Below, piece by piece: positions 25,644-51,490 of a DNA stretch of 64,000 nt. This DNA is from a virus: positions 124,001 to 188,000 of the IMG/VR virus record IMGVR_UViG_3300049460_000128; one strand, written 5' to 3'. The number at the start of each line of letters is the position of its first letter. Positions within the stretch are counted from its first letter, which is position 1. Under the pieces are notes generated by a model that was given only the letters and a program-made list of their open reading frames with translations, made no database searches and was not told the origin of the DNA. Both the position numbers and the translations under genes were made by a program.

Positions 25644-25654
25644 TAAATTCACCT

Positions 25655-25662
25655 TATAAATA
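25655..25662 (+). promoter_or_regulatory. Late promoter TATAAATA
   Basis: Exact T4-type late promoter core in the 51-base gap before the fibre gene at 25695, 32 bases ahead of its ATG. With the gp55-like gene in the window, this is the strongest single case for sigma-gp55 transcription here. Confidence 0.8.
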
Positions 25663-25694
25663 ACCATTAATTAATTTTCTTTCGGGGTTACACT

Positions 25695-28780: not shown

Positions 28781-28800
28781 CAAGTCAACACGCAACAGCA

Positions 28801-28826
28801 AGGCACACCTAGGTGTGCCTTTTCTT
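28801..28826 (+). terminator. Rho-independent terminator after the fibre gene
   Basis: A perfect 20-base palindrome (AGGCACACCT/AGGTGTGCCT) followed by TTTCTTT, 20 bases after the stop codon of the 703-residue fibre gene. Confidence 0.88.
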
Positions 28827-28839
28827 TGATTTATTAATG

Positions 28840-28847
28840 ACTAAATA
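28840..28847 (+). promoter_or_regulatory. Candidate late promoter ACTAAATA
   Basis: Two mismatches to TATAAATA, located between the terminator above and the ATG at 28873, 25 bases ahead of it. The terminator makes a new promoter here necessary unless readthrough occurs. Confidence 0.45.
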
Positions 28848-28872
28848 ATCAACATTTTATACCATAAGAGCT

Positions 28873-29742: not shown

Positions 29743-30224
29743 TGAGTCATGTGATTTTTATCCGCCACGGCGAGAGCCTGGGCAATGTAGACGGCTACTA
29801 TTACACGTTGCCTGATGTTGCAAATATCCTCAGTAGCAAGGGTGTGGATCAATGCGTTGAACTGAATAAGACCTTTAAGGATCAGCTTGAGCACGATTTC
29901 TACAAAACTGAAACAACTGTGATTCATAGTCGTTATCAACGCGCCAAAATTACAGCACAGATTGTCACCCACAAAAGTGGCATAATTATCCACAGTGAAG
30001 ATGCTCGTATCAATGAACAAGGGCATGACATATATGGAGTCGCGTCTGAATCTGAAGAGTCAGTTAAGACACGGGTTCGATCCATCATTGAACAATATCC
30101 ATTCAATCTGGTATTATTCACACACGGCATGCTCATGGGCGTTATTGACCCAGAACGTGGCGGTGCTCGCAATTGTGAATTACGCAAATACAGTAGAGAA
30201 GAAATCCTAGCCTTGTTGGCTTAA
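29742..30224 (+). CDS. Histidine phosphatase (phosphoglycerate mutase-like)
   Basis: A 160-residue member of the histidine phosphatase branch. The catalytic motif IRHGESLGN (R8, H9) is at the N-terminus, SRYQRAKITAQ follows (Arg that contacts phosphate, about residues 64-74), and the second His is in LFTHGMLMG (about 124-132). It would remove phosphate through a phosphohistidine intermediate; the substrate is unknown. It overlaps the structural gene before it, but its content fits the sugar-active genes after it. A sugar-phosphate or nucleotide-sugar substrate is my inference from that context. Confidence 0.85.
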   Translation: MSHVIFIRHGESLGNVDGYYYTLPDVANILSSKGVDQCVELNKTFKDQLEHDFYKTETTVIHSRYQRAKITAQIVTHKSGIIIHSEDARINEQGHDIYGVASESEESVKTRVRSIIEQYPFNLVLFTHGMLMGVIDPERGGARNCELRKYSREEILALLA

Positions 30225-30230
30225 CTCATA

Positions 30231-30259
30231 TTGAATCACAATCATAAGTAGTTCATAAT
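30231..30259 (+). promoter_or_regulatory. Sigma70-like promoter of the glycosyltransferase/radical-SAM block
   Basis: TTGAAT (30231-30236), 17-base spacer, CATAAT (30254-30259). It lies in the only sizeable gap (52 bases) between the histidine phosphatase and the following genes. The predicted start falls close to the AAAAGGAGA ribosome site, leaving a short leader. Confidence 0.42.
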
Positions 30260-30276
30260 ATCCAAAAGGAGATTTT

Positions 30277-30624
30277 ATGGACACTAGATTGGAACAAGCA
30301 CTAGAATACGCAAACTACAAAGTCACGGTATTCCAACAAAAAGAAAACCTCAAATTGCGCCTCGACAACATGTTGACATACGCGCACAACGGTGGCATTT
30401 TCAAGATCTCAGATACTCTCATTTCATTCGTTGACTCATTGCTGCGTCGCGATGTCGTGGAAGTTGTTCTGATTGATCAACGTGGAAATCCCGTAAAGGT
30501 AGTTGATCTCAAGGCTTTCCAGGAAACCATCTTCAGTCTGTATTTTGAAGCAACGAATGAATACCAGACGGAATTTGATAAACTGCGCAAAGCACGCTCA
30601 GTCAAGCAGGTGACCGGCGTATGA
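30277..30624 (+). CDS. Hypothetical helical protein
   Basis: A 115-residue protein with a strong ribosome site (AAAAGGAGA). The N-terminal 40 residues are a likely amphipathic or coiled-coil helix; the middle has DVVEVVLIDQRGNPVKVVDL; the C-terminal end is basic (KLRKARSVKQ). It is not recognised. The last codons overlap the following glycosyltransferase (start at 30621), so it is the first gene of the accessory block and may regulate or scaffold it. Confidence 0.65.
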   Translation: MDTRLEQALEYANYKVTVFQQKENLKLRLDNMLTYAHNGGIFKISDTLISFVDSLLRRDVVEVVLIDQRGNPVKVVDLKAFQETIFSLYFEATNEYQTEFDKLRKARSVKQVTGV

Positions 30625-31523
30625 GCAAAGGCTTTTTGATCTACGCGCACAACAATGAAGAAGTCGACTATGGTAAGTTGGCTCTTTGCTGTGCGCTAAT
30701 GATCAAACGCAACCTAACGGTCAATGCGACATGTCTGGTAACCGATCAAGGCACACTTGACTGGCTGCGTGCCAGTCATACCGCCGAATTGATCGAGTAT
30801 GCGTTCGATCACATCAAGGTTGTCGACTACGCGACATCCCATGGTGGCAGCAAACAAAAGAAATTCCTCGATACCAGTTCCACTAGCAAAATTCTGAGCT
30901 GGCACAATGGCTCCCGTAATACAGCCTACGAACTGACTCCATTCGACGAAACAATTATCCTCGATAGTGATGTACTGGTACAAGATAAATCGTTCGATCT
31001 GGTATGGGGGAATGATGAAGATCTGATGGTCAATAATCAAGCTATTACACTGGAACACCAGAGTCCACGGCATACTGAAGTGCGTCTCGATACAATGGGA
31101 ATTCCCATGTATTGGGCAACCATGGTATATTTCCAGAAGACACCAAGGTCGAAAATGCTCTTTGATTTGGTCTCTCATATCAAGGCACAATACGCATACT
31201 ATCAATACGTATATGAGTTCCCGGGAAAATTATATCGTAATGATTATGCGTTCTCGATTGCAATTCACATGATGAATGGCTTTTTGGAAAATAACGAAGT
31301 GAAGAATTTCCCATGTGGTAAGATCCTCAGTAGTTTCGATACCGATGAATTAATTGGCGTGAAAGAAAATGAACTCACGTTCTTGGTGCAAGATAGCCAA
31401 CAAGAATGGCGATTCTTTGTCAACAATGTTCGAGGCATTACCGTTCATGCTATGAACAAATACGCATTGCTCCGCCATGCACCTACCATAATTGACATTT
31501 ACTATGACTCAACAAAGATTTAA
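30621..31523 (+). CDS. Glycosyltransferase-like protein (GT-A fold), copy 1
   Basis: A 300-residue predicted glycosyltransferase. It starts with a nucleotide-binding-type strand (GFLIYAHNNEEVDYGKLALC), and the DxD metal/nucleotide-sugar motif is in FDETIILDSDVLV (D115-S-D117). The overall plan is shared with the adjacent copy at 31504 (about 25-30% similar by eye): YAHNNEEVDYGKLALCCAL versus FAQNGTTDYIRLAYALAL, and DETIILDSD versus RETIKLDCD. No membrane segment. The sugar donor and acceptor are unknown; a virion protein, phage DNA or host surface glycan are all possible. Confidence 0.72.
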   Translation: MSKGFLIYAHNNEEVDYGKLALCCALMIKRNLTVNATCLVTDQGTLDWLRASHTAELIEYAFDHIKVVDYATSHGGSKQKKFLDTSSTSKILSWHNGSRNTAYELTPFDETIILDSDVLVQDKSFDLVWGNDEDLMVNNQAITLEHQSPRHTEVRLDTMGIPMYWATMVYFQKTPRSKMLFDLVSHIKAQYAYYQYVYEFPGKLYRNDYAFSIAIHMMNGFLENNEVKNFPCGKILSSFDTDELIGVKENELTFLVQDSQQEWRFFVNNVRGITVHAMNKYALLRHAPTIIDIYYDSTKI

Positions 31524-32373
31524 ACGTGATCGTGGTTTTTTCACCTTTGCACAAAATGGCACAACGGATTATATTCGTCTAGCCTATGCACTGGCATTGA
31601 GTCTTAAGGCTACTCAAGTGGAAGTTCCCTATTTGTCAATTGGTGTGACGCCAGGTACCGTGGTTGACGCCAAATACGCATGGGCGTTTGATGAGATAGT
31701 GGAAATTCCATGGGGTGATGCAGCAAAGGATGCTGACTGGAAACTCCAGAATGAATGGAAAGCATATCACATGACTCCCTACAGGGAAACAATTAAGCTC
31801 GACTGTGATATGCTGTTCACGACCAATGTTGATTCATGGTGGGAAACACTCAGTCAGCAAGATGTTTGGTTCGCAACCACCGCAACCACATATCGCAATG
31901 ATGTTGTGACCTCTGATTACTATCGTAAGACATTCACGGCAAATAAATTGCCAAATGTCTATACGGCATTCTGCTATTTCAAGCATTCAGATACCGCCTA
32001 CCAGTTATTTGATATGGCTGAAATCATTTATACCAACTGGGAGAAATTCACGTTTGAATTCATGGACGAACCTCGCCCCACTGAAGTAAGTACTGACGTG
32101 GTATTTGCACTCGCGGTCAAGCTTCTGGGTATAGAAGATGAATGTACGCGCCCTGGAACCTTCCCAAGCTTCACACACATGAAGACTCAATTGCAGGGTT
32201 GGAATGTGAATCAAGTTACTGAACACTGGACTGATCATATCGGCGTATATTTCACTGACGAATTGGAATTGAAAATTGGTCGCTACCTGCAATTGGCGCC
32301 AATCCATTATCATGTCAAGAGCTTCATTACCGACGAGATGATTTCCTTGTATGAGAAGAAGGTGATGCCTTGA
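31504..32373 (+). CDS. Glycosyltransferase-like protein (GT-A fold), copy 2
   Basis: A 289-residue paralogue of the preceding gene, with the DxD motif in YRETIKLDCDMLF (D100-C-D102). ATG at 31504 is preferred; an in-frame TTG at 31492 would add four residues. The gene begins inside the end of copy 1 and overlaps the next start by four bases. Tandem duplication followed by divergence is the simplest origin. The two copies may add successive sugars or act as a heterodimer; neither is shown by the sequence. Confidence 0.72.
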   Translation: MTQQRFKRDRGFFTFAQNGTTDYIRLAYALALSLKATQVEVPYLSIGVTPGTVVDAKYAWAFDEIVEIPWGDAAKDADWKLQNEWKAYHMTPYRETIKLDCDMLFTTNVDSWWETLSQQDVWFATTATTYRNDVVTSDYYRKTFTANKLPNVYTAFCYFKHSDTAYQLFDMAEIIYTNWEKFTFEFMDEPRPTEVSTDVVFALAVKLLGIEDECTRPGTFPSFTHMKTQLQGWNVNQVTEHWTDHIGVYFTDELELKIGRYLQLAPIHYHVKSFITDEMISLYEKKVMP

Positions 32374-33293
32374 AAACGTTTTTGTATTATGACCAGTCAA
32401 CTGGTGTCATCAAGGCAATTTCGCCCGTACAATCAAGCGAATTTGACAAATGGGCATTGACTAAACTTGATATCCCGACAGCAAATAAGTTCCTGATGGG
32501 TGAATGGGATACGAATCATTGGTTCGTCAGCAGCAATACGACTGAAGACAAATGCGTGCTCTCCATGAATCAATTCGACTATTTGCCACAGACCTCCACT
32601 ACCATTGAAGTCTTGCCACGTTCAGAACACTCGCAGCATATCAAAACTGCAATCGGCGTAACGATCTACACCAAATTGCAGAAATTTGAATTGTCAGTTG
32701 CGCCTGAAGCCGCAAAGCTGGATCTCAGCAAGATAGAAGATGATACAATGGAATTCTTCATTACCAAGCGTAATGATCCATCCCATATTTTGGGTATGAT
32801 TACCACCAATGCCAAGGAATTGTTTGAGAAGGGTACGCTCATCTTCGACTTCCCCGTTGAAGGAAATGACTTCTCGGTATCCACCAAGCGACTGTTCCGT
32901 TTCTATCAGTTGACTGTACGTCGAAACAAGGTGTCCAATCGGGTCAAGCATTCGCATCATCGCTACAATACCTTGGTGCCATATACTCGCATTAAGACCA
33001 TGCAGGATGGCAAGGATGGTATCATCGTTGTCCACAATGTAAATAAAGATCAATTGGAAATCTCGCTTGATGGCGAAGTGTATGATATAACGACTGATGC
33101 CAGTTCTGAGATCGCTACGTTATTCTTGACACGAGAACGTGATCCCACTATATTGATTGACATCGTAAAGTTAGACCTTCGGGATATCGATTACAACAAG
33201 ACAGTAGTGATCCCAGTACCACATGATGCTGGTGTGGACTTTGGTATCTCGGGATTTCCTTACGTGGACAAACTTTCATTCTTGAGAAAATAA
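32370..33293 (+). CDS. Hypothetical protein of the glycosyltransferase block
   Basis: A 307-residue protein, not recognised. It uses a TTG start overlapping the previous stop (TTGA), with AAGAAGGTGA just upstream. The sequence seems to hold two related beta-rich modules: TMEFFITKRNDPSHILGMI (about 125-145) and EIATLFLTRERDPTILIDIV (about 250-270) share the pattern x-LF-x-T-x-R-x-DP, suggesting an internal repeat. No signal peptide or membrane segment. A sugar-binding or virion role is possible but unsupported. Confidence 0.6.
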   Translation: MKTFLYYDQSTGVIKAISPVQSSEFDKWALTKLDIPTANKFLMGEWDTNHWFVSSNTTEDKCVLSMNQFDYLPQTSTTIEVLPRSEHSQHIKTAIGVTIYTKLQKFELSVAPEAAKLDLSKIEDDTMEFFITKRNDPSHILGMITTNAKELFEKGTLIFDFPVEGNDFSVSTKRLFRFYQLTVRRNKVSNRVKHSHHRYNTLVPYTRIKTMQDGKDGIIVVHNVNKDQLEISLDGEVYDITTDASSEIATLFLTRERDPTILIDIVKLDLRDIDYNKTVVIPVPHDAGVDFGISGFPYVDKLSFLRK

Positions 33294-33322
33294 TGGCTTT
33301 ACAGAAATTTCCTATCACATGA
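33293..33322 (+). pseudogene. Remnant duplicate of the 5' end of the copy-3 glycosyltransferase gene
   Basis: The ten-codon frame encodes MALQKFPIT followed by TGA. The intact gene downstream (34065) begins MALEKFPIT, so this is its separated 5' end. The DNA copies differ at several silent sites (TTT/TTC, CCT/CCC, ATC/ATT), so the duplicate is not recent or came from a relative. Its ATG uses the previous stop (TAATG) and its TGA overlaps the HNH start (ATGA), making it a short leader of the homing endonuclease gene. Confidence 0.75.
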
Positions 33323-34065
33323 ATTATATAAAGCATTACGATATCTTGATAGCCCGTGCGATAGCCAGAAAGCTTTCTGGCTATTATGAAGTTCATCATA
33401 TAATTCCAAGGTGTATGGGTGGCACAAACAATGCTAATAATTTGGTCGAATTGACTCCAGCTGAACATTTTATAGCTCATTTATTACTCTGTCGCATATA
33501 TCCAAGTGTTGACGGGTTAGTGACCGCCGCATTTTTGATGTCTCACAAGGGAAAATATACAAACAAAGTATATGGTAAATTACGTGAACAATATGCTCAA
33601 ATTCGTAGTCATAATATGATTGGTGAACGTAATCATATGTATGGCAAAACACATGATATTGCAGCTCGAAATAAAGTATCACAAGCTAACACGGGGCGAA
33701 TACGATCAAGTTCGCATAGACAAGCCATAGCCAATGCACAGACTGGTAAAGTCATGAGTGCTTCAACCCGCAAATTGATAAGTGATGCTAATGTTGGTCG
33801 CATAGTGACTGATACAACAAAAGATAAATTATCCAAAGCATTGCAGGGTAAAATACGAAACCCTGATTCAATAGCAAAGCAAAGTATAACAAATACTGGT
33901 TCTGGTAATCCCAATTTTGGAAATGGCCAAGCCGTAACAGGAGCAAAGAACGGAATGTATGGTAAAAAATGGTATGTGAATGCAAAAGGTGAGCGTCGTG
34001 TGATGTTTCCCAATGACGAACGTTTACAACAAGATGACTGGCAAAATGGCAAGGAGTGGAAATAA
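33319..34065 (+). CDS. HNH homing endonuclease with NUMOD3 repeats
   Basis: A 248-residue free-standing homing endonuclease. The HNH motif is in YYEVHHIIPRCMGG, NNANNLVELT and AEHFIAHLLL (H26-H27, N41, H50, H54). Residues about 100-185 have three to four NUMOD3-type DNA-binding helices (NKVSQANTGR, RQAIANAQTGK, RKLISDANVGR, KDKLSKALQGK). The gene is visibly AT-richer than its neighbours. It sits exactly between a duplicated and an intact 5' end of a glycosyltransferase gene, and it supplies the AAGGAG ribosome site for that gene at its own 3' end. It would cut an unoccupied allele and spread the insertion. Confidence 0.9.
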   Translation: MNYIKHYDILIARAIARKLSGYYEVHHIIPRCMGGTNNANNLVELTPAEHFIAHLLLCRIYPSVDGLVTAAFLMSHKGKYTNKVYGKLREQYAQIRSHNMIGERNHMYGKTHDIAARNKVSQANTGRIRSSSHRQAIANAQTGKVMSASTRKLISDANVGRIVTDTTKDKLSKALQGKIRNPDSIAKQSITNTGSGNPNFGNGQAVTGAKNGMYGKKWYVNAKGERRVMFPNDERLQQDDWQNGKEWK

Positions 34066-34967
34066 TGGCATTAGAGAAATTCCCCATTACGACGTTTGAT
34101 GTTTTTTTCCTTAGCTACGATGAACCAAATGCAGAGAAGCATTGGGCTGACCTCCTGGACAAATGCCCTTGGGCTAAACGTGTACATGGCGTAAAGGGCT
34201 TTGATGCAGCACACCGCGAATGTGCCAATCAATCTGAAACCCCATGGTTCGTTACGGTCGATGCTGACAATATCGTGTTACCAGAATTCTTTGATATCGT
34301 GGTTGAACTTGATCCCGAGAATGCACCAAACCGCTGCTATTCCTGGAACGCAATCAATATGATGAACGGACTCATCTACGGCAATGGTGGCTTGAAATTG
34401 TGGTCGAAACAATTCGCTGCCAATATGCGTTCACATGAACTGTCGGATGATAAAGACGCGGTTGACTTCTGTTGGGAATCTGATTACAAGCAAGTTCATC
34501 GTACCTTCTCGGAAGTACACAACAATGGGTCAGCGTATCAGGCATTCCGGGTTGGCTATCGCGAAGGCATCAAACTCGCGTTAGATCGAGGCCAGCGCGT
34601 CGCACCAGAATTAATGAAGACGGTGTTGCATAACGTCAATCTTCGCAACCTACGCATATGGTCGTCAGTTGGTGCTGACGTTGAGCATGGTCTGTGGGCC
34701 ATATACGGCACTCGTATGGCATGGAGCCAAATGTGTGATCCAGATTACGACTTCACGGTCATTCGTGATTACGACTGGTTCAATGCCTTCTGGGAACAAA
34801 TCATTGGTGACTTGCCACCCGATCCCGTTGATCGTTTGAATGGATTGCCATTCTTCATCAATGTGTTGGGTGAGGATATTAAGAATAAAACGAAAATTGC
34901 TGTACCATTGCTTGATAGTGATACTAGCGAATTTTTCCGTGATACCTTCAAACTACGAAATGACTGA
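34065..34967 (+). CDS. Glycosyltransferase-like protein, copy 3
   Basis: A 300-residue protein starting at the TAATG junction with the HNH gene (AAGGAG at 34051). The N-terminus FDVFFLSYDEPNAEKHWADL and the VDADN motif (D66-A-D68) match a phage family of DxD nucleotide-sugar transferases; YGNGGLKLW and the AHRECANQS helix are also shared with the paralogue at 51491. It is unrelated in detail to copies 1 and 2. The next gene overlaps its stop. Specificity is unknown. Confidence 0.75.
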   Translation: MALEKFPITTFDVFFLSYDEPNAEKHWADLLDKCPWAKRVHGVKGFDAAHRECANQSETPWFVTVDADNIVLPEFFDIVVELDPENAPNRCYSWNAINMMNGLIYGNGGLKLWSKQFAANMRSHELSDDKDAVDFCWESDYKQVHRTFSEVHNNGSAYQAFRVGYREGIKLALDRGQRVAPELMKTVLHNVNLRNLRIWSSVGADVEHGLWAIYGTRMAWSQMCDPDYDFTVIRDYDWFNAFWEQIIGDLPPDPVDRLNGLPFFINVLGEDIKNKTKIAVPLLDSDTSEFFRDTFKLRND

Positions 34968-35283
34968 TTTCCAGGAAGCCAACCAGGTAATGATCCGGTT
35001 GGCTTCCTGCACTGTAGCACTCCGCCACGACTCAATACATGACTTCTTCGAGTCTGTATTCCTCCAAGCCTCACTCAACAAACAGTGGCGGGCTCCCTCG
35101 TATGCAAATGAAGGCCCAAAGGCAGATACCGATTATATCTTGGTATTCTTGCGTGACCTTCTGGCACTTCAATTCCCTGAACCACAAGACCCCAATCTCA
35201 TACAGATGCTGGCCGATGCCAGACTGTTGTATGAATGGGTCAGACCACAATACGAAGAAATTTTCGAGGTGCCATATGAATAA
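34960..35283 (+). CDS. Small helical protein, family A member 1
   Basis: A 107-residue protein of unknown function, first of three tandem paralogues. It begins MTDFQEANQVMIRLASCTVAL and ends with FPEPQDPNLIQMLADARLLY plus an acidic tail. The start at 34960 overlaps the glycosyltransferase stop. The shared plan of the three is an N-terminal ANQ-x2-I-x-L helix and a C-terminal P-x-x-x-DP-x-L-x-x-M helix, with variable middles. They lie between the glycosyltransferase and the radical-SAM genes. Confidence 0.7.
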   Translation: MTDFQEANQVMIRLASCTVALRHDSIHDFFESVFLQASLNKQWRAPSYANEGPKADTDYILVFLRDLLALQFPEPQDPNLIQMLADARLLYEWVRPQYEEIFEVPYE

Positions 35284-35653
35284 TTTGTCCTCCACTTGCT
35301 ACCCTATTCGCCACAAGTCGATCGTGCCACTTCCCAATTACGCCATTGAATCGTTTGATGATGCAAACCAAGCCTATATCAAACTGATGGATCTTAAAGC
35401 AACTCTGTTGCTTGGGGCCAATAATCAATTGGTGCGTTTGGCTGTCCAGCAGGTGGTGATTAATGGCATGGTTGGTCACACGTTGGTGAAATGGCAATCT
35501 GCAATCATGGCACACATTCATGCAATAAAGGATCTTATGAATGCCCACTATCCAAATGACAACGATCCTGTGCTTATCGCCATGTTGGAATCTGCAAAGA
35601 TTTCGCATGATGAGATGACACAACTCTATAACGAGCATTGTCATGCTGACTGA
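35276..35653 (+). CDS. Small helical protein, family A member 2
   Basis: A 125-residue paralogue of its neighbours, with ESFDDANQAYIKLMDLKATL near the N-terminus and YPNDNDPVLIAMLESAKISH near the C-terminus. ATG at 35276 overlaps the previous stop by eight bases. Longer frames extending upstream are excluded because they would read through the preceding gene. It has Cys residues only near both ends (TCYP and EHCHAD). Function unknown. Confidence 0.7.
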   Translation: MNNLSSTCYPIRHKSIVPLPNYAIESFDDANQAYIKLMDLKATLLLGANNQLVRLAVQQVVINGMVGHTLVKWQSAIMAHIHAIKDLMNAHYPNDNDPVLIAMLESAKISHDEMTQLYNEHCHAD

Positions 35654-35879
35654 TGCCAATTTGATCTATGCGCGTCTGTGTGGAATTAAAGTCAATACTG
35701 CGGGTGGTGTTACCTTGATTGCACGTCATACCTTTATAGACCAAACTCACCAAGCATATATAGAGTATTTGGATACAATCGTGGATGGCGTATGGCCTGA
35801 ACCTGAAGATCCAGAACTACAAGATATGATTCGACGTGCAAATATACGTAAATCAATCTTACACGCATTCAACAAATAA
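35643..35879 (+). CDS. Small helical protein, family A member 3
   Basis: A 78-residue shortened paralogue: LTDANLIYARLCGIKV at the start and WPEPEDPELQDMIRRANIRK at the end match the other two members, with the middle reduced. It overlaps the previous gene by 11 bases and ends 7 bases before the first radical-SAM gene, so it belongs to the same transcript. Confidence 0.7.
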   Translation: MLTDANLIYARLCGIKVNTAGGVTLIARHTFIDQTHQAYIEYLDTIVDGVWPEPEDPELQDMIRRANIRKSILHAFNK

Positions 35880-35886
35880 GGAACAC

Positions 35887-37320
35887 ATGAGCGACACACC
35901 AAAATCAACAAATCAACTCAACATGGAAGCCATGATGGCCCGCATGGATGACGTAAAGGCTAAGAGCGGATCATCCACCATGTGTACTGCAAAATGGTTG
36001 CAAAGCACTGTCCATTTGAGTAATGGTCACACGCACTCATGTCACCACCCTTCTATTCACAAAATTCCAATCAGTGAAATTAAACGCAATCCGGCAGCAC
36101 TGCACAATACCGAGTTCAAGATCGAACAACGTAAAAAGATGCTGGCTGGCGAGCGTCCTGCTGAATGCCAATACTGCTGGAACATTGAAGACCTGCCAGG
36201 TAATCACATCAGTGATCGCACCTACAAGAGTGCTGACCTGGGCTGGTCGTATCCAAATTTGCAAGACGTGATCGAAAGCAAGGGTGGCGAGAATATCAAT
36301 CCGTCATACCTGGAAGTCTCCTTCGATTCAACGTGTAACATGAAATGCATGTATTGCACGCCTGACGTATCCAGCAAATGGATGGAAGAAAGTAAGCAGT
36401 ACGGGCATTATCCCAATACTTCCCATTATGTGGGTGGCATTGAATGGCTCAAGCAGCAGAACAAAATGCCAATTCCGCAAAGGGAAGACAATCCATACGT
36501 GGATGCGTTCTGGGAATGGTGGCCTGATCTGTACAAGAGTCTGCATACCTTCCGCATTACGGGCGGTGAACCCCTGTTGAGCAAAAATACCTGGCGTGTG
36601 TTGGAAGAGATCAAGAACAATCCACGTTCAGACTTGACTCTTGCTATCAATATCAACATGATGGCTCCTGATGATTTAATCGATCGTTTTATTCAGTATT
36701 ACAACGACATTGCACCTAACATCAAAGAGTTCCAGGTGTACACGAGTTGTGAAGCACATGGCAAACAAGCTGACTATATTCGCACAGGACTTGACTACGA
36801 TAAATTCATGGCAAATTGCCGTAAGTTCCTGTCCAGTACTGGTGCATGGTCTCGTTTGAATTTCATGATCACATTCAACGTATTGAGCCTCAGCACCTTC
36901 AAGGAATTCCTGACTGATATCTGGACTATGCGTACCGAATTCAATGAGTCGGATGCAATCAATCGTGTGCCTATGATGATCAACTATTTGCGCTGGCCGC
37001 AATTCCAAGATGTACGAGTAGCACCAGCGGAATACAAGGAAAAATACCTGAAGGTCATTAAAGATTACGTGGAAGCACACACGCGCAATACAAGCCCGAA
37101 TAAAGCCGGTAGGTTCTATTTGGAAGAAGTAGATCAGATCAATCGTTTGGGTGAGTATATGTTCGAACCCATGGAAGCTGGACACTTGAAAATTCAACAT
37201 AAAGACTTTGGTGCCTTCTATCCAGAATTCGATCGTCGTCGTAATGTGAATTTTGCTGAAACCTTCCCGGATCTGGTGGACTTCTTGAATCAATGTATCG
37301 AGGTAAACAATGAGCAGTAA
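35887..37320 (+). CDS. Radical SAM protein 1, N-terminal Cys module
   Basis: A 477-residue radical SAM enzyme with the core CxxxCxxC at C150, C154, C157 (STCNMKCMYCTP), which holds the 4Fe-4S cluster that cleaves S-adenosylmethionine, and the SAM-binding GGEPLL at 226-231. Before the core is a second Cys set: CTAKW (C33), HSCHHPS (C52), ECQYCW (C94, C97), likely an auxiliary cluster of the twitch/SPASM type placed N-terminally. About half identical by eye to the next gene in key segments. AAGGAA precedes the ATG. Substrate unknown. Confidence 0.9.
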   Translation: MSDTPKSTNQLNMEAMMARMDDVKAKSGSSTMCTAKWLQSTVHLSNGHTHSCHHPSIHKIPISEIKRNPAALHNTEFKIEQRKKMLAGERPAECQYCWNIEDLPGNHISDRTYKSADLGWSYPNLQDVIESKGGENINPSYLEVSFDSTCNMKCMYCTPDVSSKWMEESKQYGHYPNTSHYVGGIEWLKQQNKMPIPQREDNPYVDAFWEWWPDLYKSLHTFRITGGEPLLSKNTWRVLEEIKNNPRSDLTLAININMMAPDDLIDRFIQYYNDIAPNIKEFQVYTSCEAHGKQADYIRTGLDYDKFMANCRKFLSSTGAWSRLNFMITFNVLSLSTFKEFLTDIWTMRTEFNESDAINRVPMMINYLRWPQFQDVRVAPAEYKEKYLKVIKDYVEAHTRNTSPNKAGRFYLEEVDQINRLGEYMFEPMEAGHLKIQHKDFGAFYPEFDRRRNVNFAETFPDLVDFLNQCIEVNNEQ

Positions 37321-38641
37321 AAAAACAATCTTCATCAAAAATATTACGGAAAAACTCGATGCAGTTAGCCCATCAATGTGTTTGGCAAAGTGGACACAAA
37401 CGACCACTTATCTGAATACGGGCCATACCCATTCGTGTCACCATCCTTCAGTGCATAAGATCCCCACTGAAGGCTTGGACGAACATCCTGAATGGATTCA
37501 CAATACGCCATACAAGCAACAAATCCGTCAGCAGATGCTCGACGGCATTCGCCCACCTGAGTGCGACTATTGCTGGCGCATTGAAGACTTGCCAGGTGAC
37601 CATGCAAGCGACCGTATGCTGAAATCTGCGGCACACTGGTCAGCAGATCACTATGACCAAATTGTGAAGTCTGGCACTGGACCAAACTTTGCACCAACGA
37701 TGTTGGAAGTGTCATTCGAGACCACGTGTAATTTCGCATGTTCGTATTGCCTGCCTGAAGTATCAAGCAAGATCTACGGTGAGATTCAAGCACATGGTCC
37801 CTATCAGCTGTTCAGTCGTACCATTCATACAATCAGGGAAGATCGGTCGACAACTAAACTTGATCTGAATACTCCAGGCGACAATGTGTACATCGATGCG
37901 TTCTGGAAAGCTATCCCGCAATGGTGGTCAACCCTTGATACCTTCCGTATTACTGGTGGTGAACCTCTCTTGAGCAAACACACTTGGGGTATGATGGACT
38001 TCGTGGAAGCCAATGCCAACAAGGACTTGACCTTTGCGATCAATACGAACTTGGGTGTACCGGATCAGAAAATTGATCAGTTGATCAAACGTGTGAATGA
38101 GATTGAACCAAACCTTCGTCGCTTTACCGTCTATACAAGCGTGGAGGCGACTGGTAAGCAAGCTGAATACATTCGTTACGGCATGGACTATCCGAAGTTT
38201 ATGGCAAACGTTTCGCGTGTCTTGGACGAGACCAATGCTGACTTGGCATTGATGACGACAATCAACATTTTGAGCTATTCGACATTCACCGAAGCCATTC
38301 ATCAATTCCTGGCCTTGCGTGCTCGTTATCCTAATCGTGTGAATTTGTCATTCAACTATTTGCGGCACCCAGAGTGCTTAGATATGCGCAATCTGCCCGA
38401 AGTGTTGAAACAAAAATGGGCAGCAGAATTGTATCAATTGATGGAGCATCCGTTCATTAACCAATACGAAACTATGTCCATCTCTCGGGTAATTGACTAT
38501 ATGCTGAGCAGCGTTGAACCAGCAATCCTGGAGGTCAATCAAAAGGATCTCGTCATGTATGCCCGCGAACTCGACAAACGACGCGGCCTTGACTTCCCAG
38601 GCACTTTCCCTGACCTGTTTGCATTGTTGCCAGGAGTATGA
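37310..38641 (+). CDS. Radical SAM protein 2, N-terminal Cys module
   Basis: A 443-residue close paralogue of radical SAM protein 1, overlapping it by 11 bases. The N-terminal module has C24 (CLAKW), C43 (HSCHHPS), C85 and C88 (ECDYCW); the core is C140, C144, C147 (TTCNFACSYCLP); GGEPLLS follows FRITG. Both proteins also share FTVYTSVEATGKQAEYIR-type segments and a C-terminal LDFPGTFPDL motif. The pair could act as a heterodimer or on related substrates. Confidence 0.9.
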   Translation: MSSKKTIFIKNITEKLDAVSPSMCLAKWTQTTTYLNTGHTHSCHHPSVHKIPTEGLDEHPEWIHNTPYKQQIRQQMLDGIRPPECDYCWRIEDLPGDHASDRMLKSAAHWSADHYDQIVKSGTGPNFAPTMLEVSFETTCNFACSYCLPEVSSKIYGEIQAHGPYQLFSRTIHTIREDRSTTKLDLNTPGDNVYIDAFWKAIPQWWSTLDTFRITGGEPLLSKHTWGMMDFVEANANKDLTFAINTNLGVPDQKIDQLIKRVNEIEPNLRRFTVYTSVEATGKQAEYIRYGMDYPKFMANVSRVLDETNADLALMTTINILSYSTFTEAIHQFLALRARYPNRVNLSFNYLRHPECLDMRNLPEVLKQKWAAELYQLMEHPFINQYETMSISRVIDYMLSSVEPAILEVNQKDLVMYARELDKRRGLDFPGTFPDLFALLPGV

Positions 38642-38643
38642 AA

Positions 38644-39864
38644 ATGAAAACAAAAGATTTAAACAAGTCAACAATATGCGCGCAACCATGGTTTGGGATA
38701 ACCATCAAACCAGATGGAGTAGCGGGTATTTGTTGTGAGGTGACCGAAGAATTGACGGATATGAATATCCGCACACATTCATTCGCCGAAATGCAAAGTC
38801 ATCCTATTGTGACACGAATTAAAGATGAAATGCTGGCGGGCAAAAAACCAAAAGAATGCTGGCGCTGCTGGCAGAAAGAAGCACACGGCGCCCCAAGCTT
38901 ACGCCACACATTGAATAATAGGTATGCTGAGTATAACCCAACATCTGAGGAGTTTGATCCTGAGTTGATCATACCTCAAAATCTTGAAATTGTGCTAGGT
39001 AATCTGTGTCAACTGCGATGCGTTATGTGTCACCCTAGTCGCTCACGCAAAGTTGAAAACACTTTCAAGTACATCATGATTAAAGATATGCGTGATAGCT
39101 ATGAAGGACTGGTTTCCACTTTACCACCAGAGTTCGATACCTCGTGGGTTGAAGATGAACAGCTATGGGAAAGTATTGCAGATCAAGGTAAAGAGGCCCG
39201 TCGTATATACCTCAACGGCGGTGAGCCTCTATTGGCTAAGCATCATGAAAAGGTATTGGAAAAGCTTATTGCGAGTGGTAAAGCTAAAGACACCGAACTC
39301 ATATACAGTACCAATGGCTTTTTGTTAGAAGACGAGCATATGGCGTTATGGCAAGAATTCAAACAAGTCAATATCGCCCTGTCAATTGACGATTTGGATG
39401 ATCGTAACCACTTTATTCGTAATCCATCCAATTGGGTTAAGCTAATGGAATCGGTTGATAAGGTGGTTGAATGGCAAAAAGACCCCAAGAATAAAGAAAT
39501 TTACATAGGTATCTGGTGTGCCATCAACATGTTAAGCTTCGCATACTTGCCTGACTATTTGGAATTCTTTGCAACGAAATATCCATCAATTGTGATCAAA
39601 GGTTGGCGTGCAATCCAAACACCTGAGTACTTGAATCCAGGTAATTTGCCTCTCGAATTCAAGGAACAAGTGGCAAAGGAAATCAAGAATAAGATTGCCC
39701 AATACCCGCAATTTGCACACCTGCGCAGTGACATAGACCACATTGTAAATTCACCATCTAATGAGAAGTTACTAGATGACGGCATCGCATTTATGAAGAT
39801 GAACGCAGAATGCTATAAGGTTGACTTGAATACTACGTTTGATCGTATGGGTAAATTCTTATGA
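38644..39864 (+). CDS. Radical SAM protein 3, N-terminal Cys module
   Basis: A 406-residue radical SAM protein. AGGAG ends at 38636, which favours the ATG at 38644 over that at 38638 (only one base of spacing). The module C12 (ICAQPWFG), C30-C31 (GICCEV), C72 and C75 (ECWRCW) precedes the core C122, C126, C129 (NLCQLRCVMCHP) and LNGGEPLLAKHH. This PW...CC...CxxC layout is the usual form of the N-terminal-twitch type. More distant from proteins 1 and 2 than those are from each other. Confidence 0.9.
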   Translation: MKTKDLNKSTICAQPWFGITIKPDGVAGICCEVTEELTDMNIRTHSFAEMQSHPIVTRIKDEMLAGKKPKECWRCWQKEAHGAPSLRHTLNNRYAEYNPTSEEFDPELIIPQNLEIVLGNLCQLRCVMCHPSRSRKVENTFKYIMIKDMRDSYEGLVSTLPPEFDTSWVEDEQLWESIADQGKEARRIYLNGGEPLLAKHHEKVLEKLIASGKAKDTELIYSTNGFLLEDEHMALWQEFKQVNIALSIDDLDDRNHFIRNPSNWVKLMESVDKVVEWQKDPKNKEIYIGIWCAINMLSFAYLPDYLEFFATKYPSIVIKGWRAIQTPEYLNPGNLPLEFKEQVAKEIKNKIAQYPQFAHLRSDIDHIVNSPSNEKLLDDGIAFMKMNAECYKVDLNTTFDRMGKFL

Positions 39865-40937
39865 TTAAGCCAATCATATTTCACTCACATCGAATGACTC
39901 CGGCGCAAAATATACCCGAAGTGACGTGTCGTGTGCCATATCAAAGAATGTATGTCCAAGAGCAAGGCAACCTATATCACTGTTGCACGCATTGGATGCC
40001 ATATTCAATTGGTAATATCCGAGATTCGAGCATATTGGACTATTATCAATCAACTGAATGGGAGATGATATCCAGGACGTTTGAAGATGGCTCATTTAAA
40101 TATTGCAATGCTGATCTCTGCCCGTCACTTCAGACCTATAACACTATAGGGAGCTTGTCAACGGATCTTAGACCCATACATGAGTTGGAACAGATAAAAA
40201 GCGCAAAATATCTTGAAGTAACTTTGAATTACGACACGTCGTGTAATTTGGCATGTCCATCGTGTCGTAACGAATTGCAGTTAGTGAAGAATGATCCAGT
40301 GTTGCAAAACATACATGAAAAAACACTAGCATCAGTAACTGAATTGCTGGATAATGGATATAAAGTAACACTGGCGGTAACGAGTGCCGGCGACCCATTT
40401 GCCAGTAAACTATACATTGATGCGTTGCAAAACTACCATCATGACTCTGCAAATTACGATTACTTCATAGTCACAAACGGTACGTTATTGACTCAAAAGA
40501 AACTTGAGTGGGATAATATCCGCCATCGCACTCGAGGTTTTGCTATATCGGTAGATGCAGCCACAAAAGAAACGTATGCGAAGGTTAGACGGCTTGGTGA
40601 TTTTGATCAATTGACCGCCAATCTTAAAAACTTGAATGAACAGAAACGAAATGGCTTCTTCACACTGGATCCATATATCACTGTTAACTTCGTGATATCA
40701 TCATTGAATTTTAGAGAGCTCCCGCTGTTCATGGAGCAGATGCTGGAATTGGAACAGATCTCCGAAATCTGGTTGAACCTCATTGCTGACTGGGGCCATT
40801 TGAATAATTTCAACGACTATGCTATTTGGCGTGAAGATCACCCTGATCATGAAGAATTTCTAGCCGTCATGCAGCATCCATTGTTGAAGTCGAACAAACT
40901 CAAAGCCACCAATGCCATGCGTTTCATTCATGTCTAA
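39861..40937 (+). CDS. Radical SAM protein 4, altered motifs
   Basis: A 358-residue radical SAM protein with core C128, C132, C135 (TSCNLACPSCRN). The N-terminal module is C23 (TCRVPY), C41-C42 (HCCTHW), then C82 and C87, spaced CxxxxC instead of CxxC. The SAM-binding GGEP is replaced by SAGDPFAS (about 175-182), as in some other radical SAM subfamilies. The start overlaps the previous stop (ATGA). The differences suggest a distinct reaction or substrate from the neighbours. Confidence 0.87.
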   Translation: MIKPIIFHSHRMTPAQNIPEVTCRVPYQRMYVQEQGNLYHCCTHWMPYSIGNIRDSSILDYYQSTEWEMISRTFEDGSFKYCNADLCPSLQTYNTIGSLSTDLRPIHELEQIKSAKYLEVTLNYDTSCNLACPSCRNELQLVKNDPVLQNIHEKTLASVTELLDNGYKVTLAVTSAGDPFASKLYIDALQNYHHDSANYDYFIVTNGTLLTQKKLEWDNIRHRTRGFAISVDAATKETYAKVRRLGDFDQLTANLKNLNEQKRNGFFTLDPYITVNFVISSLNFRELPLFMEQMLELEQISEIWLNLIADWGHLNNFNDYAIWREDHPDHEEFLAVMQHPLLKSNKLKATNAMRFIHV

Positions 40938-42129
40938 GATTACTTGTTTGGCGCCCTGGGTCCATGGGTTTGCCACTAATAAACTAAAGGGACTCTGCTG
41001 CATTGCAGGCAACATGCAGCCGTTCGAAGCACATTCCGAATTCTGGAATGGAGACTACATGCGTGAGGTTAGGACTAAATTCCTAGCTGGCAAAACAATA
41101 CCTGAATGCTCGCTGTGTTTCGCCCACAGTAATAGGGAAGAAGACAACCGATACTATCAGGTCTTTGATCGAGACTATGGGCACCTAGTCGATGACATCA
41201 AAACATCAACTGATGCTGAAACCGGAGCAACTACGTTTCAGCCAGTGTACTTGGATTATCGACACTCGCTATGCAATTTGAAGTGCAAGACATGTTCGTC
41301 ACATTCGTCTAGTTCAATAGCATCAACATCACGTATGATCCCCATAGTGTCATACAAGTCAGTATTCGCAGATCACCTATCGGACTTGAAAGCCGTCATC
41401 ACCGACAAGACACAGAAGATATATTGGGCTGGTGGTGAACCGTTAATGAGCCCAGTGCATTGGGAAATACTTGAACATATGAAAGACAGACAGTTTTTCA
41501 ATGCTCATATGACGTACAATACAAACGCCACCAAATTAACCAATGACGAAATGTTTGATCAAGCGGTCAATTATTTCAAAATGTTCAACTCGCATGTGGG
41601 AATAAGTGTTGACGGTATAGACGAAGTCAACGATTATATTAGAGCAGGTTCAGATTGGAAATCCATTAATGCCACGATCAAAAAGTTATTGGGAGCATTG
41701 GGACGTCATGTCATCAGTTTAGACATAACCATGACTAACCTGACCTTCCTCCAATTGCCGGCGATAATTCAATACGCAATTGATACTGGATTGGAACATT
41801 GCTATTTCAAAAACATGATTGAATTTGAAGGTGACGTTCATGATGGGCAAATATACGATGACAATACGTACTTGAGTGTCAGCCTGATTTCACCCGCAAC
41901 ATTCAACACCATATCCAATGAGGTGACTGCAATACTAGCAAATTCAACTCTCCAAACAAACATCAGTTCGTTGTTGGTCTTCATTCAGAATCAATGCATT
42001 GGGCGAGAATTTACTGACCACGAACGGCAGGCAATTGTGGACTTTGAACAACGTCACAATGACACTCTATCACTGTATGACATAGTTCGTCACCAGGCGC
42101 TGCCTGGCACGGTCGTTGACACTCTTTGA
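40930..42129 (+). CDS. Radical SAM protein 5, N-terminal Cys module
   Basis: A 399-residue protein, last of the five. ATG at 40930 overlaps the previous stop by eight bases. The module is C6 (TCLAPW), C23-C24 (GLCCIAG), C60 and C63 (ECSLCF); the core C115, C119, C122 (SLCNLKCKTCSS) is followed by a Ser-rich stretch and AGGEPLMSP. The gene ends before a strong palindromic terminator. All five being intact argues that the group is selected, not decaying. Confidence 0.9.
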   Translation: MSKITCLAPWVHGFATNKLKGLCCIAGNMQPFEAHSEFWNGDYMREVRTKFLAGKTIPECSLCFAHSNREEDNRYYQVFDRDYGHLVDDIKTSTDAETGATTFQPVYLDYRHSLCNLKCKTCSSHSSSSIASTSRMIPIVSYKSVFADHLSDLKAVITDKTQKIYWAGGEPLMSPVHWEILEHMKDRQFFNAHMTYNTNATKLTNDEMFDQAVNYFKMFNSHVGISVDGIDEVNDYIRAGSDWKSINATIKKLLGALGRHVISLDITMTNLTFLQLPAIIQYAIDTGLEHCYFKNMIEFEGDVHDGQIYDDNTYLSVSLISPATFNTISNEVTAILANSTLQTNISSLLVFIQNQCIGREFTDHERQAIVDFEQRHNDTLSLYDIVRHQALPGTVVDTL

Positions 42130-42213: not shown

Positions 42214-44004
42214 TTAGTTGTTGGTGATTTTGATGTTGTACGTTGCGTCGAAGCTTTCAACATCGCTACCGACTGGAATCAACCAGTTGACCCAATACAT
42301 GCCGTTCGAGTAAGTGCCCGTATGGGTGTAGGTGATCGACGAGGTCAAAGTGTTCAGGTTGATCTTCTGGATTGCCGAAGTCGTGTAGTAGTTCTTGCCG
42401 TAGTTCGCTGGGCCGCCTTCGATATTGGTGCGCAGCAGGTACATGTTGCCGCCGTTTACGACCATGTCCAGTGGGAAACCGTAGTCGATACTTGCTGGCA
42501 GTGGCGTGACCTTGGTGTTCACGAACGAGTCATTGCCGTCGTTCTGGATGATCATGGTGTTACGCACGTTCACTGCATTCGGGCCGCTGTCTTCGCCGCC
42601 AAACCACACGTCGTATTTGCCGGTGCCGAAGTTTACCAGTTCAACTGAAGCAATTGCACGTTTGGTAAAGTCTGGCAGGCGAGTTTTGTCAATTGCAAAC
42701 GTACCATCGCGGTTGTTCTTCAGGAAGAATGGGGTCAGTTGGATCGAATTGTCGGTCACCAGAATGTCCGCATAGCCGGTCGACTTCGAATCGATAGTCG
42801 CTGCTGCGTGGCAGAAGCAAGTCAGTGGCAGCGTAACGTTTTTGTAAGTGCCGTCAGCTTGCGACATCAGTACGTGTGGTTGTTCACCAGCGTATGGAGG
42901 AGCGTCAACACCATGGCAAGCAAAGAACACATCTGGTTTACCGTCGTTGTTGAGGTCAGCAACAACAGCTTTACGTGGGTGAATGCAACCTTTAGTGTCT
43001 TTCAGCAGGGCTGCGGTATTGTCGACCCATTTGCCGGCGGCGTCACGTTTGTAAAAGTGGATCGAACCGTAACGAGTAGGATCAATCTTGCCGTTCACGA
43101 AGTAGTCCAGCGTATGCGTTACCAGGGAGTACGTGCCATCCTGGAAGAAGTCCGCGAATGCTGCTGCATTGCCGCCAGCTACTTCGGCGGGCAACACTTG
43201 CGAGCCGACCGTGGCCGCTGCCGTCACTTTGTTTTCGTACGACGACATTTTCGGAGCAATGTGGCCGGTATTGAACGGGATGTAGTCGAAGCCGTTGATC
43301 AGGCCAGGGTTCACGTTGTTCTTGTTCTCGTCGCTCTCGCTGAAGCCGGTGATTACGTTGGTACGCGGAGTACCACGATCAAGAGCGGCGGTCCACCAGT
43401 CAACGCCGGCTTTCTCGCCTGTGCGATGCAGCACGTTTTGATACAGCAGGTTCGTGTACGCAACGTTGACCACGTTGTCGCCGTACGTGCGTTTGAATTC
43501 GTCGCTGTTCAAGAAACCGTTGGCGATGTCCAGCATGTCATGACCGTTTTGATTGGCGTAGATCCAGAAGCCCAGACCAGCCGGATCAGGTTTGCGGTTG
43601 AACGCCGCTTGATACAGACGGTACACTTGGCCGGCCGAGCCGTTGGTGTCGAATGTCGTGTAGTAGTCCACGAACTTGATCAGGTTGGGATTTTGGTAGG
43701 TCTGGACTTCGTTGGTGCTGTTGTTGGTCACAGTCACGACGCCCGTTTGTTGGTTCTTGTTGATGGTGTAGTTTGCGCGGTAGCCGGTAATGGTCACCAC
43801 ATCGGTTACCACTGGAGCGGCAGCAGCAGCACCTTGCATGACGCGTGGCGTGCCGCCTTGCAGCATACGTTTAATTTCTGGAGGTTGCTCTGGAGCACCT
43901 TGAACGACTTGCGAAGAGGTCGACGGAGCTTGCGAACCACCGCCACCGCAGCCTACCAGGATTGCTGCAAACATCGCGCTTACCAGCAAATTAGAACGTT
44001 TCAT
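42214..44004 (-). CDS. Outer-surface lipoprotein with DUF4214 and FG-GAP-like repeats
   Basis: A 596-residue lipoprotein. The signal MKRSNLLVSAMFAAILVGC has a lipobox LVGC (C19) followed by GGGGS. Residues about 115-235 form a DUF4214 domain (QVYRLYQAAFNRKPDPAGLG, FLNSDEFKRTYG). The rest has VCBS/FG-GAP-type elements such as VADLNNDGKPDVFFACHG. GAGGAG sits before the chosen ATG at 44004. The gene is GC-richer than its neighbours, has its own promoter and terminator, and resembles chromosomal proteins of Oxalobacteraceae, so acquisition from a host is likely. A role at the infected cell surface, for example exclusion of other phages, is speculation. Confidence 0.85.
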   Translation of the reverse strand: MKRSNLLVSAMFAAILVGCGGGGSQAPSTSSQVVQGAPEQPPEIKRMLQGGTPRVMQGAAAAAPVVTDVVTITGYRANYTINKNQQTGVVTVTNNSTNEVQTYQNPNLIKFVDYYTTFDTNGSAGQVYRLYQAAFNRKPDPAGLGFWIYANQNGHDMLDIANGFLNSDEFKRTYGDNVVNVAYTNLLYQNVLHRTGEKAGVDWWTAALDRGTPRTNVITGFSESDENKNNVNPGLINGFDYIPFNTGHIAPKMSSYENKVTAAATVGSQVLPAEVAGGNAAAFADFFQDGTYSLVTHTLDYFVNGKIDPTRYGSIHFYKRDAAGKWVDNTAALLKDTKGCIHPRKAVVADLNNDGKPDVFFACHGVDAPPYAGEQPHVLMSQADGTYKNVTLPLTCFCHAAATIDSKSTGYADILVTDNSIQLTPFFLKNNRDGTFAIDKTRLPDFTKRAIASVELVNFGTGKYDVWFGGEDSGPNAVNVRNTMIIQNDGNDSFVNTKVTPLPASIDYGFPLDMVVNGGNMYLLRTNIEGGPANYGKNYYTTSAIQKINLNTLTSSITYTHTGTYSNGMYWVNWLIPVGSDVESFDATYNIKITNN

Positions 44005-44170
44005 TTCATCTCCTCGTGTGTACAATAGTTCATATGGTACGTTCATCTAAAGAAGAAATCAAGTGCATTCATTGCTCTACTGCAAAAAGCATACACTCTT
44101 GTATTCTAAGTAAGCCTGATTTCACCAGTTTACGGGCTCCAGCTTGCATGTTCGTAGCTGGTAACGTTGT
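44005..44170. other. Intergenic region upstream of the lipoprotein gene
   Basis: 166 bases without a supported gene. It holds the putative promoter for the lipoprotein gene at its left end. A plus-strand frame here has no homology or ribosome site that I can see. Confidence 0.5.
44034..44062 (-). promoter_or_regulatory. Putative sigma70 promoter of the lipoprotein gene
   Basis: Reading leftward: TTGATT (44062-44057), 17-base spacer, TACCAT (44039-44034), about 30 bases ahead of the ATG at 44004. Four of six matches in each hexamer. Confidence 0.4.
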
Positions 44171-51430: not shown

Positions 51431-51490
51431 TATAGATTGTTCCCGTAAATCAGTATAGAGTCATGTTAAATATACGATTTGCGGGACACT

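Follow-up and report, generated by a model that had tools for sequence, protein, structure and literature searches.

The window analyzed here comprises 64,000 nucleotides of the virus record IMGVR_UViG_3300049460_000128, and the source of the array described below is a very large bacterial virus. At 35887–42129, five intact open reading frames follow one another on the + strand, with neighbors overlapping by 4–26 bases. They encode enzyme 1 (35887–37320, 477 aa), enzyme 2 (37310–38641, 443 aa), enzyme 3 (38638–39864, 408 aa), enzyme 4 (39861–40937, 358 aa) and enzyme 5 (40912–42129, 405 aa), the last of which starts within the enzyme 4 gene. Enzymes 1, 2, 3 and 5 match the NCBIfam profile NF033640 (N_Twi_rSAM, twitch domain-containing radical SAM protein) over nearly the full model length with 318.8, 303.1, 275.4 and 211.4 bits, respectively, above its curated cut-off of 170 bits. 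Enzyme 4 remains below the cut-off (49.5 bits). The pattern as a whole is not attributable to chance. In Pfam, the N-terminus of enzyme 4 matches SPASM (PF13186) with 32.7 bits (cut-off 21.5), and the protein also matches Radical_SAM (31.4 bits, cut-off 29.5).

All five proteins carry the CxxxCxxC core, exactly as proposed in the first-pass annotation, and all five fit the form of the earlier cysteine set described there: CTAKW..CH..CX2C, CLAKW..CH..CX2C and CAQPW..CC..CX2C in enzymes 1–3, CRVPY..CC..CX4C in enzyme 4 and CLAPW..CC..CX2C in enzyme 5. In enzyme 1, these residues are C33/C52/C94/C97 (twitch) and C150/C154/C157 (core), followed by the SAM-binding motif GGEP at 226–229. GGEP is also found in enzymes 2, 3 and 5 and is replaced by GDP in enzyme 4. 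Judged by their sequences, the five proteins are radical-SAM enzymes of the N-terminal-twitch type, as the same annotation had suspected, with enzyme 4 as a divergent cousin of N_Twi_rSAM.

Pairwise identity among the five enzymes is 20–44%, with enzymes 1 and 2 sharing 43–44% (blastp). In the tree, enzymes 1, 2 and 3 each fall within their own well-supported small clade alongside genes of other phages, and an ortholog of enzyme 3 (55%) was found in another locus, L007; enzyme 4 forms an orphan long branch. The low identities and the separate clades of enzymes 1–3 indicate that none of the genes is a recent duplicate of another, which makes a multi-enzyme set likely.

Twitch module and predicted fold

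A family alignment of 62 sequences shows six of the seven cysteines to be invariant, the core cysteines among them. C52, the seventh, occurs in 61 sequences and its sole exception is an alignment gap; the twitch spacing CX17-18CX41CX2C is likewise kept in 61 of 62. The AlphaFold model of enzyme 1 (pLDDT 95.6) consists of one helix, followed by the twitch, the barrel and an all-helical tail. In this model, cysteines are predicted on either side of a β-hairpin and two more after a helix, an order and secondary structure that match BtrN and recur in MoaA and other twitch enzymes (PMC6231123, PMC9012708). In these enzymes the twitch is C-terminal, whereas in the array proteins it is placed ahead of the barrel; apart from the barrel, the sequences show negligible similarity. 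The layout of N-terminal twitch and barrel is identical to that of NF033640, which names a domain layout without an assigned reaction.

A fold search with the enzyme 1 model returned SkfB (peptide), BlsE (sugar nucleoside) and SuiB (peptide) as top PDB matches, with a TM-score of about 0.33 over the query; viperin and QueE were also among the matches. As the top folds mix peptide and sugar-nucleoside enzymes, no sugar-acting enzyme is singled out. The model contains no domain of the size of a RiPP recognition element (RRE).

The surrounding glycosyltransferase cassette

Upstream of the array, a series of + strand genes starts with c8 (25053–25643), the conserved first gene of a syntenic block, which matches phrog_11259 (E 3e-70, no function assigned). 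It is followed by the tail-fiber protein c5 (25695–26669), recognized by a PHROG tail-fiber match and present in 40 of 62 locus groups, and by a tail-fiber-like protein of 728 aa (26594–28780; PHROG 24898 tail fiber, E 4e-10). Alignments identify the conserved and structural-looking protein c4 (28873–29742; 40/62 groups), for which no match was found among the PHROG profiles, and the 115-aa protein c3 (30277–30624; 42/62). In some relatives, c4 is rich in Gly and Tyr. Then come two copies of c2, a putative glycogenin-like (GT8-type) glycosyltransferase: the first (30621–31523; 44/62) matches the glycogenin profile with E ~1e-3, and the second (31492–32373) belongs to the same family and was covered by the same profile search. 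The conserved protein c6 (32370–33293; 26/62, by alignment) precedes c1 (34056–34967), which, based on its predicted structure, is a GT2-like glycosyltransferase of the GT-A fold with a conserved DxD (D69, D71). The best PDB matches of the c1 model in Foldseek, SunS, the PBCV-1 capsid glycosyltransferase and WrtF, are all glycosyltransferases. A second member of the c1 family (229 aa, 51479–52168, + strand) was recognized by a profile score of 192.7 bits and by clustering with c1.

Between c1 and enzyme 1 lie three small + strand genes, s1 (34960–35283, 107 aa), s2 (35276–35653, ~125 aa) and s3 (35643–35879, 78 aa), which a shuffle test and alignment identify as distant tandem paralogs. They are absent from this position in most relatives, and the contigs examined yielded no relatives of these proteins; in one locus, L008, an unrelated pair of small proteins occupies their place. 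No transmembrane-like stretch was detected in any cassette protein. The GalE and GalU of the phage pass curated cut-offs and are encoded outside the cassette, 45–115 kb away. Accessory glycan enzymes near such cassettes include an epimerase, a UDP-sugar dehydrogenase, a carbamoyltransferase, a GDSL/SGNH-type hydrolase and NeuB. The GtrA flippase (PF04138), which acts with GtrB and a Gtr transferase in Gtr-type O-antigen modification, was not found in 11 viral contigs. Rfam gave no match in the segment at 24–48 kb. Two exact T4 late-promoter motifs are located directly ahead of tail-fiber genes; as their count is at chance level, late co-transcription of the array with the tail fibers is left without support. 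A dedicated Fe-S supply was rejected, since neither an A-type carrier (PF01521) nor a flavodoxin was found in the contig of the phage.

In most of the 62 locus groups, the block is arranged on one strand in the order tail fiber, c4, c3, two glycosyltransferases, c6 in some cases, a third glycosyltransferase and radical-SAM genes. In 42 of 61 groups, a glycosyltransferase lies directly 5' of a radical-SAM gene, frequently with overlap, and in 10 contigs (3 non-redundant groups) a c1-type glycosyltransferase domain and an N_Twi_rSAM domain form a single open reading frame, as at L133:7036–8964, a fusion that points to a common substrate. In a reciprocal scan starting from the glycosyltransferase, 52 of 54 non-redundant loci contained glycogenin-like glycosyltransferases and 36 a radical-SAM gene, which indicates that the glycosyltransferase core is constant and the radical-SAM genes are add-ons. 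From their distribution, the latter appear to behave as optional tailoring genes would.

Relation to known phage gene sets

N_Twi_rSAM genes are abundant in uncultivated T4-like phages, where arrays of variable make-up comprise 1–21 radical-SAM genes per contig. The maximum occurs in one 519-kb viral contig with 21 matches (16 above the NF033640 cut-off), so the five-gene array is not extreme. The exact five-gene set was not found elsewhere in peptide-pattern scans, which detect near relatives only. A genome-contig scan gave no close bacterial homologs among the matches listed. Among cultured phages, the Vibrio phages K566/K567 are relatives that carry radical-SAM genes in clusters. The first-pass annotation had inferred a multi-step or multi-substrate pathway from the five genes; while the multi-enzyme set stands as likely, the variable array size and the failure to find the exact set elsewhere make a fixed five-step pathway unlikely. 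Instead, the pattern fits pick-and-mix tailoring enzymes on a conserved glycosyltransferase core.

To our knowledge, no product of such radical-SAM sets has been characterized. The earlier remark that single radical-SAM genes occur in phages understates the published record. The T4-like marine genome TARA_ERS488813_N000010 encodes 12 radical-SAM genes (PMC5332604). These resemble the present case in their number within one phage; unlike here, where no A-type carrier (PF01521) was found in the contig, they were read as iron-sulfur metabolism. According to another report, pelagimyophages carry radical-SAM cassettes inside a 'host recognition cluster', a hypervariable T4-like island with tail fibers and GT8-type glycosyltransferases, and the latter are regarded by the authors as modifiers of the host O-chain (PMC7029224). 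The present cassette shares with this cluster the tail-fiber neighbors, the GT8-like glycosyltransferases and the T4-like phage background. However, the part of that report considered here mentions the cassettes in passing and describes no syntenic glycosyltransferase/radical-SAM block, fusion or five genes in a row. Tandem radical-SAM sets and cassettes in host recognition clusters are already published without assigned function. The finding extends a known kind; what is new is the context, in which the array extends a syntenic tail-fiber/glycosyltransferase cassette. With the chlorovirus PBCV-1, the phage shares virus-encoded glycosyltransferases, which in PBCV-1 serve its own capsid, and the c1 model matches the fold of the PBCV-1 enzyme. 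PBCV-1, unlike the present virus, infects eukaryotic algae, and we know of no radical-SAM enzymes in its glycosylation pathway.

Proposed glycan tailoring and its alternatives

We consider it about an even chance (roughly 50%) that the five enzymes are tailoring enzymes that edit a phage-made glycan, probably on tail-fiber proteins. Cytosolic GT-A glycosyltransferases (two glycogenin-like and at least one GT2-like) would use UDP-sugars to assemble a short glycan, and GalU and GalE of the phage may help to supply these sugars. The radical-SAM enzymes could then edit the glycan via 5'-deoxyadenosyl-radical chemistry (oxidation, epimerization, deoxygenation or a similar reaction), while the N-terminal twitch cluster may accept or donate electrons or play a structural part. 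The likeliest carrier would be a tail-fiber or baseplate protein encoded directly upstream, and the phage would thereby change its own receptor-binding parts at their surface. This reading draws on the synteny, the fusion, the reciprocal scan, the fold matches of the glycosyltransferase, the accessory glycan genes and GalE/GalU. It is further favored by the lack of transmembrane-like stretches, of GtrA in the 11 contigs and of room for an RRE, and by BtrN as precedent for a twitch enzyme acting on a sugar-like substrate (PMC9012708). Counted against it are the mixed fold matches, the distance of GalU and GalE, the published O-chain reading, the late promoters at chance level and s1–s3, which could be peptide substrates.

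The O-chain reading leads to an alternative in which the glycosyltransferases add sugars to a host surface polysaccharide such as the LPS O-chain and the radical-SAM enzymes edit them, thus excluding other phages. The UDP-sugar dehydrogenase, NeuB and epimerases are typical surface-polysaccharide genes and agree with this view, as does the interpretation published for the pelagimyophage glycosyltransferases (PMC7029224). However, the glycosyltransferases and radical-SAM proteins look soluble, the flippase was not found in the 11 contigs and the cassette genes form a single run with the tail-fiber genes. We regard host remodeling as rather unlikely. A comparably low probability applies to direct modification of side chains in tail fibers or in s1–s3 through crosslinks, epimerization or thioethers, similar to RiPP maturases, with the glycosyltransferases adding separate sugars. 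SPASM/twitch enzymes commonly act on peptides, the maturases SkfB and SuiB are among the top fold matches, and s1–s3 are placed between glycosyltransferase and radical-SAM genes, with the unrelated pair of L008 at the equivalent position. Yet the confident enzyme 1 model offers no room for an RRE, the small proteins are lineage-specific, and the fusion argues for a substrate shared with the glycosyltransferase. No conserved precursor gene was found beside the array in relatives. On account of the lineage-specific small genes and the missing RRE, a RiPP pathway with a conserved precursor was dropped as first choice.

Two further explanations appear far less probable. Formation of a modified nucleotide or phage DNA base, or of an antiviral nucleotide like that of viperin, would be in line with viperin and QueE among the fold matches and with a thymidylate synthase gene in the phage. 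This option was rejected because NCBIfam calls the synthase an ordinary thymidylate synthase and the five enzymes score only 17–38 bits with the viperin profile NF038283 (cut-off 180); moreover, the neighbors are tail fibers and glycosyltransferases rather than DNA-metabolism genes. The idea that the array is an accumulation of drifting copies of little functional value, as the wide variation in array size and content might suggest, is hardly credible in view of the five intact reading frames with complete catalytic cysteines, the orthologous small clades of enzymes 1–3 and the essentially invariant ligand cysteines in 62 sequences.

Returning to glycan tailoring, a broader version, held somewhat more tentatively, is that large T4-like phages possess a modular, rapidly reshuffled radical-enzyme system that equips their own receptor-binding proteins with unusual, chemically edited glycans, with every phage combining its own set of N-twitch enzymes with the conserved glycosyltransferase core. 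The question can be put directly to the test, given the glycosyltransferase–radical-SAM fusion and the relatives among cultured Vibrio phages. If glycan tailoring is correct, uncultured phages edit the sugars of their attachment proteins by radical chemistry, which could change the hosts that are gripped or hide the particle, and a function would be assigned to a large family of viral enzymes that so far carries a name without a reaction. The modular system, if also real, would represent a novel biological role of radical SAM enzymes and a novel way for virion surfaces to become diverse.

Organization and divergence of the radical-SAM array

The source contig of the window is viral (296.6 kb, with the window corresponding to its bases 124001-188000), and its gene content, including genes for a baseplate wedge, a tail lysozyme, a late sigma factor, an SbcD-like nuclease subunit and a DNA helicase, places it among the large T4-like phages. 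The array occupies 35887-42129 on the + strand and consists of five genes (35887-37320, 37310-38641, 38638-39864, 39861-40937 and 40912-42129), whose neighbors overlap by 4-26 bases. The first-pass annotation had described five consecutive radical-SAM genes, each with a Cys module before the core. This is confirmed by the presence of CxxxCxxC and an earlier four-Cys set in each of the five proteins, as well as by profile matches: genes 1, 2, 3 and 5 exceed the curated cut-off of NF033640 (twitch domain-containing radical SAM protein, N_Twi_rSAM), and gene 4, which lies below it, matches Pfam SPASM at its N-terminus in addition to Radical_SAM.

Pairwise identity among the five enzymes is 20-44% over aligned regions. 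A tree of 78 sequences places enzymes 1, 2 and 3 each in a small, well-supported group of its own together with genes of other phages; enzyme 5 sits on a long branch in a wider group, and enzyme 4, with a very long branch, is an orphan. Hence, the array does not result from recent tandem duplication. A 62-sequence alignment shows no variation at six of the seven Cys; the seventh is absent from one sequence, at an alignment gap, and the twitch spacing CX17-18CX41CX2C is found in 61 of the 62 sequences. In the AlphaFold model of enzyme 1 (mean pLDDT 95.6), the first Cys precedes and the second follows a β-hairpin, with the CX2C pair located after helices; this predicted order is the one given for the BtrN twitch (PMC6231123). 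Fold searches with enzyme 1 returned SkfB, BlsE, SuiB, viperin and NifB from the PDB, i.e. matches generic for the superfamily. Among viral models the matches were full-length, to unnamed radical-SAM proteins of Caudovirales (TM 0.76 query, 0.87 target) and, less strongly, to Vibrio phages phi-pp2 and KVP40.

Just past the array, a 610-aa lipoprotein-like ORF (42214-44046, - strand) with DUF4214 and FG-GAP repeats lies in a region of locally high GC (0.51-0.55) and is possibly cargo of bacterial origin. Further downstream, the profile match of a thymidylate synthase (52448-53590) is split over three stretches in 380 aa, as if the gene carried insertions.

Occurrence and array size

Relatives in IMG/VR numbered 487 in one alignment-based scan and at least 557 in another; from each scan, the best 80 were carried forward. 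A tblastn search of 50,697 phage records gave no match to enzyme 1. Enzyme 3 had weak matches (19-34%) in 26 Vibrio phage records and in a single marine fragment. Vibrio phage K566 harbors one cluster with three annotated radical-SAM genes. Among the matches listed, bacterial and archaeal genomes gave only distant ones. One or two N-twitch genes lie within reach in most of 60 locus groups, and runs of five occur in four groups; a run of five is thus unusual, yet not unique. The highest whole-contig count was obtained for a 519-kb virus (L101, 518,643 bases), with 21 N_Twi_rSAM matches on one contig, 16 of them above the cut-off, in several clusters.

An associated glycosyltransferase cassette

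When 2,503 ORFs, taken from the window and 133 loci, were clustered, a block on one strand emerged that retains its order in most locus groups: c8, the tail-fibre protein c5, the structural-looking c4, the 115-aa c3, two copies of the glycosyltransferase c2, c6, the glycosyltransferase c1 and radical-SAM. In the window, c8 to c1 span 25053-34967. The c2 proteins (30621-31523, 31492-32373) match glycogenin at E about 1e-3. For c1 (34056-34967), which has a conserved DxD and a confident model (pLDDT 92.3), the best PDB matches are SunS, the PBCV-1 capsid glycosyltransferase and WrtF; since the TM-scores are modest (about 0.3), c1 is predicted to be a glycosyltransferase at fold level. Some c1-type glycosyltransferases (L223:5035-7926 and L255:3425-5431) are extended at the N-terminus by about 300-440 aa; these extensions resemble repeated degenerate modules and have no Pfam match. 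An HNH-like endonuclease ORF (33319-34065, 248 aa, judged by eye from the translation) separates c6 from c1; its GC is lower (0.39), and it resembles a homing-type insertion. The ORF immediately before the cassette (13912-24900) is a single one of 3662 aa; relatives encode a protein of about 1000 aa at this place, and the longer version may be a baseplate or adhesin protein that has become enlarged.

A radical-SAM gene follows c1 immediately on its 3' side in 42 of 61 groups. In one relative, both are combined in a 642-aa ORF (radical-SAM half 364 bits), and a further scan identified c1-N_Twi_rSAM fusions in 10 contigs forming 3 non-redundant groups, which therefore do not represent one assembly error. 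Because these loci had been picked by radical-SAM, a reciprocal scan was conducted with c1; it used the top 80 among more than 595 matches, so that its fractions apply to near relatives of the c1 in the window. The scan left 54 non-redundant loci in which 3 kb or more follow c1; among these, c2 was present in 52, c3 in 48, c4 in 43 and a radical-SAM gene in 36 (14 directly 3' of c1). In 50 of the 80, the gene after c1 fell into a cluster made up of second c1-type transferases; in 18, it was a radical-SAM gene. Accordingly, the glycosyltransferase core is constant and the radical-SAM genes are optional among these near relatives.

Proposed substrate and function

Taken together, fusion, adjacency and the constant-core pattern support that the glycosyltransferases and radical-SAM enzymes may share a substrate. 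With a probability of roughly one half, the glycosyltransferases would assemble a glycan in the cytosol that the radical-SAM enzymes then edit, its carrier being a tail-fibre or baseplate protein. That the substrate would be a sugar is suggested by the transferases and by accessory genes recurrent near arrays, i.e. carbamoyltransferase, NAD-dependent epimerase, UDP-sugar dehydrogenase, GDSL/SGNH-type hydrolases and, in one instance, NeuB, all typical glycan-tailoring enzymes. GalE and GalU, both above curated cut-offs, are encoded elsewhere in the genome of the window's phage; neither an A-type carrier nor a flavodoxin was found in its contig. The proposed virion location is suggested by synteny. 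Some c4 proteins, those of L022 and L036, contain long Gly-Tyr repeats (GYGYGYG...). As a tyrosine is the residue that glycogenin glucosylates, these repeats may be an attachment region for the glycogenin-like transferases.

The main rivals to such glycan editing, each clearly less likely than it, are remodelling of host-surface glycans and direct modification of a peptide. Against the former, no GtrA was detected in 11 contigs and no transmembrane-like stretch in any cassette protein. The interval between c1 and enzyme 1 (34960-35879) holds three small ORFs, of 107, about 125 and 78 aa. By their sequences they seem to be distantly paralogous, pairwise scores being reached by 0, 1 and 0 of 500 shuffles, and they had no relatives in the contigs examined. 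The equivalent place in another locus (L008:9465-10001) holds two 84-aa tandem paralogs, 45% identical and unrelated to these three. Possibly, the small tandem proteins are a substrate, or the place is an insertion hotspot.

Nishimura et al. (2017) described 12 radical-SAM genes in one T4-like marine genome, which they tied to Fe-S metabolism (PMC5332604). A 2020 account of pelagimyophages reports a host recognition cluster in which tail fibres occur with GT8 transferases and radical-SAM cassettes; for the transferases, it proposes a host O-chain change (PMC7029224). No account of the fusion, the syntenic core or a function of viral N-twitch enzymes was found in searches of an open-access library. 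The array is real and extends a kind that was already known.
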